DNA from: Acuticoccus sp. MNP-M23
GTDB lineage: Bacteria > Pseudomonadota > Alphaproteobacteria > Rhizobiales > Amorphaceae
Assembly: GCF_031195445.1 (NCBI RefSeq)
Contig: NZ_CP133480.1
Span: 868,001 to 932,000, forward strand
Length of the DNA: 64,000 bases
Direction of reading: 5' to 3'
Shown here: positions 9,584-56,418 of the stretch, piece after piece
Layout: each line of letters starts with the position of its first letter
Numbering within the stretch: position 1 is the first letter of the stretch
The notes under the pieces: generated by a model
Seen by the model: only the letters and a program-made list of their open reading frames with translations
What the model was told of the DNA's origin: nothing
Database searches by the model: none
Translations under genes and position numbers: made by a program

Positions 9584-10963
9584 ATGACGGGCGCGCCCGA
9601 CAGTTTCGACATCCAGCCCTTTGCCGACAAGCTGGCGCAGATGACCGCCCAGCATCCGGACGTTGCCCTGGGCGAGATCTTTGCGGTAAACCTCAACGGC
9701 GCCCTCCATGGCAAGCGGGTGCCATTGTCGACCTTGCTGAAGCTGGCGGCCGATGGGCCGCGCGCCCTGCGCTTCCAGCTCTCGCTCGCCGGCCTGGACG
9801 TGTTTGGCGATGATGTGGCCGAGGCGCGGATCGCCATGGAGATCGGCGACCCGGACGGCGCCTTCGTGCCGGTGGCCGATACGCTGGCAGTCGCCCCTTT
9901 CGGCGCCACACCCATGTTCCTGCTGCAAGGCATGTTCGGAGCCCAGAGCCAGGACGTGCTCAGCCCGCTCGACCCGCGCAGCATCCTGCTGGCACAGGAT
10001 GCCCGCGCCCGCGCCGCCGGCCTGACGCCCGTGATGGCGCTGGAGATCGAATTCTACCTCATCGACCCGAAGGCGAACACGCCGGCGTGCCATCCAAGCC
10101 GCGGCACACCGCTCGGCCGCTCGCAGGTTCTCGACGTCGACCTTCTGGAGGCGTTCGACCCGGTCCTGTCAGACATTCGCGACAGTGCCGCGCGACTAGG
10201 CTTGCCGGCCGACACCATCCTCGCCGAGTTCGGCGCCGGGCAGTTCGAGATCAACCTCGCCCACACCGATGCAGCGCGCGCATGCGACCAGCTGGTTGCG
10301 CTGAAGCGGCTCGTAAAGGTCAAGGCGCGGGCGCACGGGCTGGATGCGACGTTCATGGCAAAGCCCTTTACCGGCTGGTCGGGCTCGGGCCTTCACCTCC
10401 ACCTCAGCATGCTGGACGGAGACGGGCGCAACGTGTTCGACGAACCGGGCACCCCCGTCGGCCCGCGCCTCGGGCATGCCATCGCGGGGCTGGCCGGCAC
10501 CGCGCGCGAAACCTTCCTGATGGCAGCGCCGCACCTCAACTCCTACCGGCGGCACCGCCCGGGCTCCTATGCCCCCATCGGCGCCACCTGGGGGGTGGAC
10601 AACCGCGGCGCTGCCATCCGCGTGCCCACCGCCACAGGCCCGGCCGCCCGGCTGGAGCACAGGATTGCCGGCGCCGATGCCAACCCCTATCTCGTCGCAG
10701 CCACGGTTCTGGCCGGGGCGCTGCACGGGATGGAAAATGCGCTGACGCCGAGCGCGCCTTGCGAAAGCGATTTCGGCGAAGGCGACCGCTTTCCGGAGGC
10801 GTGGACCGAGGCCATCGACCTGTTCGAGGGCTCGGACCATGTGGCGAACACCTTCGGCACGGAGTTCGCGCGGGTGTTCGCGGCCATGAAGCGGCAGGAG
10901 GCGGCCGCCCTGCGTGCCCGCGTCACCGACGTCGAGCACGCCGTCTATCTGCGAAACGTCTAG
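9584..10963 (+). CDS. Glutamine synthetase family protein, gamma-glutamylpolyamine synthetase-like (PuuA)
   Basis: 459-aa ATP-dependent ligase of the glutamine synthetase fold. Active-site segments are visible in order: EIEFYLID (first Glu of the metal site), EFGAGQFEINL, the ATP/ammonia-site run SGSGLHLHLSM, NRGAAIRVP and RLEHRIAGADANPYLV. The divergence from canonical GlnA and the location opposite a polyamine importer and aminotransferase suggest gamma-glutamylation of putrescine or another amine, as PuuA does. The stop TAG at 10961-10963 is formed by the first three bases of the large palindrome that follows. Whether it acts on putrescine, ethanolamine or a monoamine cannot be decided from sequence. 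Confidence 0.82.
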   Translation: MTGAPDSFDIQPFADKLAQMTAQHPDVALGEIFAVNLNGALHGKRVPLSTLLKLAADGPRALRFQLSLAGLDVFGDDVAEARIAMEIGDPDGAFVPVADTLAVAPFGATPMFLLQGMFGAQSQDVLSPLDPRSILLAQDARARAAGLTPVMALEIEFYLIDPKANTPACHPSRGTPLGRSQVLDVDLLEAFDPVLSDIRDSAARLGLPADTILAEFGAGQFEINLAHTDAARACDQLVALKRLVKVKARAHGLDATFMAKPFTGWSGSGLHLHLSMLDGDGRNVFDEPGTPVGPRLGHAIAGLAGTARETFLMAAPHLNSYRRHRPGSYAPIGATWGVDNRGAAIRVPTATGPAARLEHRIAGADANPYLVAATVLAGALHGMENALTPSAPCESDFGEGDRFPEAWTEAIDLFEGSDHVANTFGTEFARVFAAMKRQEAAALRARVTDVEHAVYLRNV

Positions 10964-11227
10964 AGCGTTTCTCGCTCCTATTGCCCCACCCGATGGCCCG
11001 CTGACGCAGGGTGGCAAGGAGCGTCGTGCAGCCGGTAGCGGGAGTACCGGCAAGCGGCGTGACGCTGTCCACCCTGCGTCAGCGGGCCACCCGGAGGGCG
11101 CCGCCAGGGCGTTCGCCGGACTGCGTTGCAGCGCTTGGCCGTGCGGCCGGCACGCCCGGCGCGCTGCGCCTCGCCGGCAAACGCCCTGACGACGTCGAGT
11201 GGGCCAATACGAGCGAGAAACGCTCTA
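10961..11227. repeat. Nested palindromic intergenic element (three-arm structure)
   Basis: A 267-bp non-coding block between convergent genes. Outer arms 10961-10983 and 11205-11227 are inverted copies matching at 22 of 23 positions, and pairing continues inward to about 10995/11193 with three more mismatches. Inside are two further inverted repeats: 10995-11014 with 11069-11088 (20 of 20) and 11105-11119 with 11174-11188 (14 of 15), each enclosing smaller stems such as GCCGGTA/TACCGGC and GCAGCGC/GCGCTGC. Each outer tip, GAGCG-TTTCT-CGCTC, is itself a small hairpin. The folded form would be a stem with two side arms. Each end begins TAG, giving the stop codons of both flanking genes. It carries no ORF and resembles a mosaic palindromic or MITE-like repeat; family not identified. 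Confidence 0.85.
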
Positions 11228-12100
11228 GCCTTCGTCGGCGCCATCCTCGCGCGCGATCCGCAGCGGCTCCTTGAAGGTCATCGTGCGGTAGGGGAACGGG
11301 ATCTCGATGCCCGCATCGTCCAGCGCGCGCTTGACCGCGGCAACCACCTCATCGCGCGAGGTGCGCACGTCGACCGGCTTGGAGCCGGTCCACCACGTCA
11401 CCTCGAAGTTGATCGACGAACTGGCAAATTCCTGCGCGAAGATCTGCACCGGGCGGCCCTCGGTGATCACCGTGCTGCAGGCCTTCACCGCCTTGGCAAT
11501 CACGTCGCGCGAGGCGTCCACGTCCTCGCCATAGGCGACGCCGCAGATGAAAGTGGTGCGGCGCTGTTCCTGGTCGGTGATCACGGTCAGCGGGTTCTTG
11601 AACACCATCGCATTGGGCAGGATGACGAGCTGGCCGTCAGTCCGCCGCACATAGGTCTCGCGGATGGTGATGCGCTCGACGCACCCCTCGTGCCCGTTGC
11701 TGTCGACAAAATCTCCGATCCGCATGGACGCGCGAAACAGGATCATGATCCCGGCAAAGAAATTCTCGAACACGTCCTTGAACGCAAAACCGATAGCGAC
11801 CGAGCCAAGGCCGACGCCGGCCAGCGCAGACGCCGGTGTAAGGGTGGGAAACAGCACCACCGCTGCGGTGGTGAGGCCCACAACCCAGGTCAGAATGGAG
11901 GCAAGGAGCGTGAACAGCTCCTGGAGCGACTGGCGCAAACGCGCCCGCCGTGTGGCCGACTGGACCGCCCTGTGGACCAGCTTGGCCATAAGCCAGGTGA
12001 GGAGGATCACCGCAAAGGCTGCGGCAACTTCGGGCAACAGCTCAATGGCGTTGCGCCCCAGCCGCGTCATCTCGCGAACCAGGATCGTGATGGGTTCCAT
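11225..12100 (-). CDS. mscS: Small-conductance mechanosensitive channel, MscS family
   Basis: 291-aa inner-membrane channel protein. It has membrane segments at about residues 20-45, 68-90 and the pore-lining helix at about 95-125, where the Gly/Ala-rich ALAGVGLGSVAIGFAFKD is typical of TM3, followed by the beta domain with GDFVDSNGHEGCVERI. It should open under hypo-osmotic stress and release solutes. ATG at 12100 follows GAGGAAA; a longer frame upstream has no such support. Its TAG stop is supplied by the right end of the palindromic element. Function is clear at family level. Confidence 0.88.
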   Translation of the reverse strand: MEPITILVREMTRLGRNAIELLPEVAAAFAVILLTWLMAKLVHRAVQSATRRARLRQSLQELFTLLASILTWVVGLTTAAVVLFPTLTPASALAGVGLGSVAIGFAFKDVFENFFAGIMILFRASMRIGDFVDSNGHEGCVERITIRETYVRRTDGQLVILPNAMVFKNPLTVITDQEQRRTTFICGVAYGEDVDASRDVIAKAVKACSTVITEGRPVQIFAQEFASSSINFEVTWWTGSKPVDVRTSRDEVVAAVKRALDDAGIEIPFPYRTMTFKEPLRIAREDGADEG

Positions 12101-12306
12101 TGGTGTTTCCTCAGCCGGCCGTTTCGGAAATAACCCGCGGGCGGCTCCTTGGTTCACCACTTTGTCACAGGACCAGGCGACAGGATGCGCTTGCCTTGGG
12201 CAAGCCTGCCGGGGCACCCTCCCCGCCCCAAGGAGATTGAAGCATTGACGCGCGCATCCAAGACAGACCATCGGCCCGTGAAGGCTGGCGCCGCGCGGTT
12301 CCCGCA

Positions 12307-13065
12307 ATGACGCACGCAACGCCGCTGCCGTCCGAGGCGCCGCAGGAGAACCCGCGCGACCTCAGCGCCTTCGCCCATGTCGACACATGGATCTTCGACC
12401 TCGACAACACGCTCTACCCTTCGCACACGGACCTGTTTGCCCAGGTCGACCAGCGGATGGGCGACTTTGTGGCAAAGCTTCTCGACATGGAGCGCAGCGC
12501 CGCCCACCTTTTGCAGAAGGACTATTACAAGCGCTACGGCACCACGCTGCGCGGCCTGATGGTGGAGCACGGGATCAACCCGGACGGTTTCCTCGAGTTC
12601 GTCCACGACATCGACCACTCGAAGGTGCTGCCCGACCCTCGCCTCGGCGCGGCGCTGGAGGCGCTCCCGGGCCGCCGCTTCATCATGACCAACGGCACCA
12701 CTGCCCACTCCAACGCCATCACCGGACGCCTTGGCCTGGACGCCCACTTCGAGGACGTGTTCGACATTGTCGCAGCAGACCTCATCCCCAAGCCAGCGGC
12801 GGAAACCTACACGCGGTTCTGGGACAAGCACGGGATCGACCCCGCCCGCTCGGCCATGTTCGAAGATCTTTCGCGCAACCTTGTGGTGCCGGCTGAACAC
12901 GGGATGCGTACGGTGCTGATCGTGCCGGAGGGAACGCGCGAGGTTTTCCGCGAGGACTGGGAGCTTGAGGGACGCGAGGCCCCGCACGTCGAATATGTGA
13001 CGGACGATCTTGCCGGCTTTCTGGAGCGTCTTCCGGGCGCCCTCGCGCCCGCCGCGCCGGATTGA
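12307..13065 (+). CDS. HAD-superfamily pyrimidine 5'-nucleotidase
   Basis: 252-aa HAD phosphatase. Motif I is DLDNTLYP with nucleophile D31 and D33, motif II is the Thr in IMTNGT, and the later Lys (IPKPAAE) and Asp (FEDLSRN) motifs are present. DLDNTLYP and FEDLSRN together mark the pyrimidine 5'-nucleotidase (SDT1/PpaA-like) subfamily, which dephosphorylates UMP, CMP or related nucleotides. The ATG at 12307 has only a weak ribosome site, so a slightly later start is possible. It is divergent from mscS and lies about 85 nt upstream of dapD on the same strand. Confidence 0.85.
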
Positions 13066-56080: not shown

Positions 56081-56120
56081 GGTCGTTTCTCCTTCGCCGT
56101 CATCCCGACAGCGTTCGGTT

Positions 56121-56341
56121 GCACTTGCCCGGCAGGTCTCCTGGCTCGCGGGTCGTCATGCTCCACCGGCCTTCCCGGTCCGCCCTGCAAAGAGCATCCC
56201 AGTGACACAAGATGGCAAAGCACTCGCCGCACACAGTCGCGGGAGCGGCTCCGGCTGATCGGCTTTTCCTTTCACGAAAAAAGCCGGGCTCCGGATTCCC
56301 TCTTCGGTTTCGGCAGGCGGTGAGGCCGCACGAAACACCAA
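56121..56341 (-). promoter_or_regulatory. Cobalamin (B12) riboswitch
   Basis: On the minus strand the leader of cbtB carries the B12 box AGCCAGGAGACCTGCC (56146-56131), preceded by the conserved core GCTCCCGCGACTGTG (about 56249-56231), CACTGGG, GGGAAGGCCGGTGGAGC and GGGAATCCGG (about 56301-56292). Binding of adenosylcobalamin should repress the cbtB-cbtA-His-rich operon, mainly by blocking translation or by termination. The stretch 56342-56418 upstream probably holds the promoter; I see no clear -35/-10 pair there. Confidence 0.93.
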
Positions 56342-56418
56342 GCCTCCCTTTAATAGGGCATCATGCCGCAACGCACCAGCGTTTCCTCATCCGGCGCCAT
56401 TCGGGCGGCATCCGGCGG

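Follow-up and report, generated by a model that had tools for sequence, protein, structure and literature searches.

The 267-bp palindrome at which two convergent genes end in the window (the whole stretch of 64,000 nucleotides of the Acuticoccus sp. MNP-M23 genome analysed here) is best explained, with a probability of about 0.8, as one copy of a MITE-like family of palindromic elements whose insertion at YTAR, here CTAG, with duplication of the TA leaves the stop codons of both genes in place, and whose mobiliser is most likely a transposase of the IS5 type. The family would be non-autonomous, without a transposase of its own, and spread over an alpha-proteobacterial order. A transposase acting on the terminal inverted repeats would insert the element at YTAR, most often at CTAG, and the central TA would be duplicated on insertion, as judged from empty and filled sites of other copies and, by extension, for the window copy. 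Because CTAG reads as TAG on both strands and is often a stop codon, an insertion that duplicates TA preserves the stop of each convergent gene; the resulting C-TA-[G...C]-TA-G would leave a TAG on each side, and both genes would keep their former stop. The palindrome that ends both genes is thus explained by target choice and TA duplication, and not by a supplied stop unit. The features of the region are the following, in window positions; R1 is a covariance model of the lobe core, described below.

9584-10963, plus strand: glutamine synthetase-like gene (ORF, PF00120), with its stop TAG at 10961-10963 inside the left junction
10961-10962, no strand: left TA, the putative duplicated target dinucleotide (C10960-TA-G10963 = CTAG), as suggested by other copies and empty sites
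10961-10993, plus strand: left terminal inverted repeat arm, beginning TAGAGC (pair at 91% over 34 nt)
10963-11225, no strand: mobile palindromic element, 263 bp without the TA duplication (repeats, fold, second full copy at 93%)
10985-11098, plus strand: lobe A, a hairpin with the R motif at 11013-11072 (inner repeat pair; R1 match of 74.3 bits, a training sequence)
11099-11194, minus strand: lobe B, an inverted hairpin homologous to lobe A (inner repeat pair; lobe alignment)
11116-11175, minus strand: R motif of lobe B (R1 match of 76.9 bits, a training sequence)
11195-11227, minus strand: right terminal inverted repeat arm, ending GCTCTA (same 34-nt pair)
11225-12319, minus strand: MscS-like mechanosensitive channel gene (ORF, PF00924/PF21082), with its stop TAG at 11227-11225 in the right junction; start codon uncertain
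11226-11227, no strand: right TA, the putative duplicated target dinucleotide (C11225-TA-G11228 = CTAG), as suggested by other copies and empty sites

Direct reading of the sequence at 10961-11227 confirmed the palindrome as first described. The three pairs of arms claimed by the first-pass annotation matched at 22 of 23 positions (outer arms, 10961-10983 and 11205-11227), at 20 of 20 (inner repeat, 10995-11014 and 11069-11088) and at 14 of 15 (second inner repeat, 11105-11119 and 11174-11188). A repeat search lengthened all three, giving 34 nt with 91% identity for the outer pair, and 30 nt (90%) and 21 nt (86%) for the inner ones. The element has a minimum free energy of -192.8 kcal/mol, compared with -130.5 +/- 5.4 for shuffled sequences (z -11.6; 0 of 200 shuffles as low), and the predicted fold is an outer stem closing on two large hairpins. 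The stability of this fold is not due to chance. Lobe A and the reverse complement of lobe B are homologous in the window copy, most clearly so in the copy of genome G365 and weakly in those of G007a and G049, and the element is therefore an inverted pair of one motif enclosed by terminal repeats. Empty sites of other copies allowed the borders of the window copy to be refined by analogy: the mobile unit most plausibly runs from G10963 to C11225 (263 bp), with the TA pairs outside it as the presumed duplicated target and with C10960 and G11228 completing the CTAG around it. The features of a MITE are all present, namely a short length (263 bp, too short for a transposase), terminal inverted repeats, TA duplication and dispersed copies. 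In Rfam, no family scored above the gathering threshold at the element, where only microRNA-precursor hairpins appeared below it; matches in the window were limited to one tRNA and one cobalamin riboswitch, the latter at 56114-56357 on the minus strand (97.4 bits).

Both convergent genes indeed stop in a TAG at the edges of the element, with ORF ends at 10963 on the plus strand and 11225 on the minus strand. It had also been proposed that the element supplies these stop codons, but a relative lacking the element speaks against this: in genome G005, a glutamine synthetase-like gene (61% identical protein) stops at the same codon, TAG, without it (locus L160). Likewise, the neighbour gene of the second copy in the Acuticoccus sp. 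MNP-M23 genome has a counterpart in G003 that stops at the same place without an element (L177); the match is 73% identical with a gap of 4 bases, and the stop appears in it as plus-strand TTA. Each of the two stops must therefore predate the element or owe nothing to it. What looked like "supplied" stop codons are two copies of the TAG already present in the target. No relative with the glutamine synthetase-like and mscS genes side by side was found.

Target choice can be followed in the other copies. Sixty further copies were fetched from genomes chosen for many matches (G151, G087, G048, G121, G334, G208 and G267). A script bounded 52 of them, and eight were dropped (three at contig ends, one without an inverted repeat, and four of G048 missed by the end pattern); together with the window copy, the second copy of the same genome and one of G006, the bounded set amounts to 55. 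Of the 57 fetched copies not truncated at a contig end, 56 contain an inverted repeat, and the length without TA is 257-267 in 50 of the 55 bounded copies and 271-327 in the other five. Ends are TAGAGC-, TAGGTC-, TAGGGT- or TATACC-like, 50 of the 55 being of the TAG type. Among these 50, TA is present on the left in 45, on the right in 49 and on both sides in 44, six lacking it on one side; a harsher count, adding the four dropped G048 copies, none of which has a clean TA on both sides, gives 44/54. The 44 copies with TA on both sides sit in YTAR in 41 cases and in CTAG in 24.

Empty sites were sought by joining the flanks of 31 sites and searching 12 genomes, the best 30 loci being examined. 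Within these 30 loci, 13 of the 31 sites have a congener that aligns over at least 140 of 148 bases through an element-free junction, and in 11 of the 13 at least one congener carries a single YTAR, mostly CTAG (L097/L155, L105/L173 and L114/L158 with CTAG; L118/L157 with TTAG). The remaining two (L095 and L101) have CA in the centre instead of TA, and the partial empty-site match of the second own-genome copy reads TTAC. A single YTAR in 11 of 13 empty sites and TA on both sides of filled ones together show that insertion duplicates TA. The window copy itself has TA on both sides; the joined-flank search in 12 genomes returned no orthologous empty site for it. Copies ending in TATACC (five bounded copies) seem to use another target. 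TATACC or ATACC ends were seen at L135, L137, L138, L140 and L143 of G334 and also at L065, L079, L087, L090 and L093, and in some of them the flanks look as if 3 bp of a TNA type (TTA, TCA), rather than TA, had been duplicated.

The proposal of a dispersed palindromic repeat family was borne out by the existence of other copies. The Acuticoccus genome (G000; 5.16 Mb, 7 contigs) holds a second full copy at C1:4060778-4061044, 93% identical over its whole length and with other flanks; the two copies, 7% different, may be old. It also holds two identical 21-bp sequences consisting of ends only, CTAGAGCGTTTCTCGCTCTAG, at C1:1880067-1880087 (L016) and C1:4547351-4547371 (L020), both flanked by a converging pair of ORFs (of 393/202 and 313/100 codons). 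From their sequence, these remnants look like products of deletion between short repeats, CGCTC or GAGCG, inside the arms. BLAST detected the element in 3 of 10 genomes of the bacterial family, the own genome included; of the 7 other congeners, 2 carry copies. The wider spread was surveyed with R1, built from 15 lobes of eight elements and one partial copy after a poorly aligned lobe (G049B) was dropped. At E <= 0.001, R1 matched in 76 of the 397 genomes searched in the order, from 50 of 141 genera, with rough E-values, 13 candidates scored per genome, and six of the 76 genomes having supplied training lobes. When 150 candidates were scored in 15 chosen genomes, up to 33 matches per genome were obtained (25 in G151, 33 in G049 and 16 in G334). 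Identity between copies reaches 1.00 (to two decimals) within G151 and within G087, and together with the empty sites in congeners this indicates that the family moved recently in these genomes.

Relatives are also carried by plasmids. One of Phyllobacterium sp. 628 matches the G151 element along its whole length at 67%, and two Nitratireductor plasmids match the G087 element over 60-82% of it. These plasmids belong to named Hyphomicrobiales, which suggests that the order carrying the family is probably Hyphomicrobiales. The same plasmid search with the window element gave one 59-base actinobacterial piece only, and those with the G334 and G267 elements gave no match. An exact 18-mer of the element end occurred in two acidobacterial records among the contigs searched, which is taken as chance. 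Some loci depart from the common form. Shorter elements of 138-173 bp, with like ends and apparently one lobe, were seen at L215 (5382-5519), L066 (1452-1613) and L079 (1439-1611); a degenerate copy at L042 (1350-1715, G007) adjoins a direct repetition of part of the element; and the right flank of the L108 site (G151) matches many places in congeners, pointing to another dispersed repeat beside the element.

The frequent location of the element at gene ends can partly be explained by the target. The window contains few CTAG sites (0.23 per kb). Of 44 element sites, 32 coincide with the end of one or more ORFs of at least 80 codons, and seven with the ends of two. Free CTAG sites were taken as a control from 400 kb of three genomes, as 20 evenly chosen stretches of 20 kb with element copies masked. 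These sites end one ORF in 20/43 (G151), 8/31 (G087) and 7/20 (G000) cases, and two ORFs in 2, 0 and 2 cases. By target choice alone, between about one quarter and one half of the insertions of a CTAG-targeting element would thus fall on a stop codon. In the same three genomes, element sites end at least one ORF in 24 of 30 cases compared with 35 of 94 for free CTAG (p = 5e-5), and two ORFs in 7 of 30 compared with 4 of 94 (p = 0.004); genome by genome, the excess is significant in G151 alone (17/18 vs 20/43) and not in G087 (5/10 vs 8/31). With ORFs of at least 150 codons, junction sides coincide with ORF ends in 36 of 94 cases; among all TAG triplets in the flanks, 17 of 435 do so, a still greater contrast. 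Since 24/30 exceeds 35/94, target choice accounts for part and not the whole of the gene-end excess. The rest would most likely come from the loss of insertions that break genes, or otherwise from a further preference for, or benefit at, gene ends. Four CTAG sites within 35 kb of G151 are the ends of element remnants.

Which transposase moves the element was approached with profile searches covering PF13340 in 12 genomes and PF01797 in the own genome. IS5-type transposases (PF13340) are present in 11 of the 12; G334 has no PF13340 match, despite its 16 R1 matches. Two transposases checked in NCBIfam belong to the IS5 family (NF033580), three of four ORF parts scoring over the cut-off. Ends of ISs were resolved at 15 loci, at two of them for one end only, and several further loci lack clear ends. 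The strongest case is in G087, where an 847-bp IS5-family IS (four matches of equal score, of which the three fetched are identical over 846-848 bp) sits in CTAG/TTAG and shares up to 17 of 18 terminal bases with G087 element ends, the maximum of 300 shuffles being 14. One G121 element end agrees with a G087 IS at 16/18 and one G151 element end at 14/18, the latter equal to the best shuffle. IS5-family elements also directly abut an element border at four loci, L096 (from about 1214), L106 and L111 in G151 and L259 in G087, which indicates that both use the same kind of target. Mobilisation of the TAGGGT-ended branch by IS5 is thus well supported. In the own genome, the best IS5 end match is 11/18, at chance level (shuffle mean 10.1, maximum 13), although the IS at L225 shares the initial eight bases, TAGAGCGT; for the TAGAGC-ended branch of the window, we only infer the same mobiliser. 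Element ends of G006, G334, G208, G267 and G048 match no resolved IS5 end beyond chance. A search of G151 for an element that shares these ends and carries a transposase gave none; five unpaired end motifs there are partial copies. Altogether, the mobiliser would most likely be an IS5-family DDE transposase with YTAR/TA choice, as suggested by near-identical ends in G087 and by extension elsewhere.

IS630/Tc1-like transposases also duplicate TA. Copies with TAGAGC ends such as that of the window (TAGAGCGTTTCTCG-type ends) might therefore be mobilised by an enzyme of this type, which would agree with TA duplication and the CTAG preference, with IS5 ends that match TAGAGC-type arms no better than chance, and with G334, where elements occur and PF13340 does not; RUP, moreover, has been linked with IS630-Spn1 in the part of the literature available (PMC2229807). 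This remains an unlikely candidate, since the 17/18 match in G087 is to the ends of an IS5 element, and IS711, a YTAR/TA element in the available part of its description, fits the IS5 reading (PMC2266754). A role rather than an origin is at issue in the suggestion that the palindrome is a bidirectional stop/terminator cassette, kept at convergent gene ends because it is useful to both genes. The very stable hairpin, the stops of both neighbours within the element, the 21-bp remnants that also lie between converging ORFs, and the gene-end excess over free CTAG on one side (24/30 vs 35/94) as well as both (7/30 vs 4/94) would all suit such a cassette. It is nevertheless improbable: the glutamine synthetase-like stop predates the element, the TA derives from the target, 37 of 44 element sites lack an ORF end (at least 80 codons) on at least one side, and no terminator-like T-tailed hairpin lies in 10800-11400. 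Of the two possibilities raised in the first-pass annotation, insertion at gene ends is thus upheld by the empty sites, and the built-in stop/terminator unit is disfavoured by the target origin of the TA, the G005 stop, the lack of a T-tailed hairpin and the scarcity of two-sided ORF ends.

Pairing is conserved strongly enough to raise the question of a structured RNA, regulatory or retro-transposed, whose fold would be under selection. Between genomes, identity of the left arms is 25-63% in 34 of 36 pairwise comparisons; the two arms of a single copy nevertheless remain complementary, on average at 82% over 32 bp and at 38% in the lowest case, counted without gaps. When 16 elements of our choice were aligned, 71 of 82 consensus pairs showed two-sided changes; with the structure derived from that same alignment, 93.0% of cells are paired, compared with 35-38% after sliding by 1-3 columns, and the observed covariation was reached by 0 of 500 shuffles. 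This strong two-sided covariation would fit an RNA, as would the lobes, in which 8-11% of standard pairs are G-T on the given strand and A-C is rarer (32 vs 9 and 51 vs 17). Against it, the outer stem has five G-T and seven A-C cells versus 351 Watson-Crick cells; counted in the own consensus fold of each strand, with mainly Watson-Crick lobe pairs, G-T and A-C stand at 38 vs 24 and 33 vs 35; pairs with G-T as their commonest form are seen on both strands (5 and 3); and the fold of the reverse strand is no less stable (-122.8 vs -117.6). By the counts in each strand's own fold, no strand stands out. With no strand bias, like folds on both strands and the Rfam result given above, selection at the RNA level is very improbable, and the complementarity of arms and lobes points to constraint or conversion at the DNA level. 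The inner lobes would then be two copies of a single structured motif whose base pairing is maintained throughout the order, more probably as DNA (hairpin/cruciform, or arm-to-arm conversion) than as RNA. Hardly any weight can be given to the idea that the element consists of two paired CGTC-tagged REPs of the REP/BIME type, with RAYT transposases as mobilisers. Such REPs, in the available part of the source, predominate in alpha-Proteobacteria and form inverted dimers, but their stems of 8-9 bp and loops of 4-5 are far smaller than lobes of 96-114 nt (PMC3733652). The own genome has 0 matches to Y1_Tnp (PF01797). To our knowledge, TA duplication is not a trait of IS200/605 elements.

IS711/IS6501 of Brucella belong to the IS5 family, and Bru-RS1 and Bru-RS2 of the same genus are about 103-105 bp long. 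As far as the available text goes, ISs of the IS711/IS6501 type share the YTAR target and the duplicated TA with the MITE-like family, IS711 measuring 842 bp (PMC2266754), and IS5-family ISs of G087 and G048 end at CTAG with the same kind of ends as the element. From that source, IS711 is the closest published precedent for the YTAR/TA target; it carries a transposase, whereas the element has none and possesses a two-lobed core. Bru-RS1 and Bru-RS2, compared by description only, are likewise repeated palindromes tied to a YTAR-targeting IS (PMC2266754, in part). According to the available portion of PMC2229807, the CIR of Caulobacter and Brucella resembles the element in being intergenic and alpha-proteobacterial, with two inverted-repeat arms and TA at the termini, but is about 110 bp long without pairing of the 5' and 3' ends, whereas the element is about 263 bp with a long end-to-end stem; on these two points, identity with CIR, known by description, is unlikely. 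RIME of Rhizobium, also compared by description, comprises rhizobial intergenic repeats (PMC2573895, in part). Br-REP1 of Bradyrhizobium has three palindromes as well and lies in overlapping 3' UTRs of convergent genes, but differs in its central 20-bp palindrome of other sequence and its about 200 sites, the accessible part of the report mentioning no TA duplication (PMC5082802). CGTC/GTAG-tagged REPs are also palindromes, often in inverted dimers (PMC3733652, in part). The MITEs RUP, Correia and ERIC share TIRs, TA at the termini and stable hairpins at a length of about 100-200 bp, and differ in their hosts and TIR lengths, no two-lobed core being mentioned in the part of the source available (PMC2229807). 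No description of the element family was found in the part of the literature searched; the family may yet be the same as a rhizobial repeat that already has a name, RIME and Bru-RS being known by description only, while CIR is set apart by its reported length.

Several consequences follow for palindromes at convergent gene ends. It is predicted that other CTAG-targeting elements also lie at stop codons. With arms that diverge between genomes and keep their complementarity within copies, the family makes it testable whether such repeats are kept palindromic by hairpins or by arm-to-arm conversion, and also in what way an element without genes becomes suited to a different transposase. Annotators could mask the family with the core model. 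A tentative extension, which might hold but is doubtful at present, is that the two-lobed DNA-hairpin core is a conserved chassis long carried in the order, its terminal repeats being re-tuned or exchanged to suit each resident transposase, with both arms changing together, and stop codons at CTAG giving it safe landing places on either side. In G334, TAGAGC-ended and TATACC-ended forms occur together, but core identity is lower between the two end types, with a mean of 0.68 and a maximum of 0.75 (25 pairs), than within a type, with a mean of 0.80 (20 pairs), so that a recent exchange of ends is not supported there.
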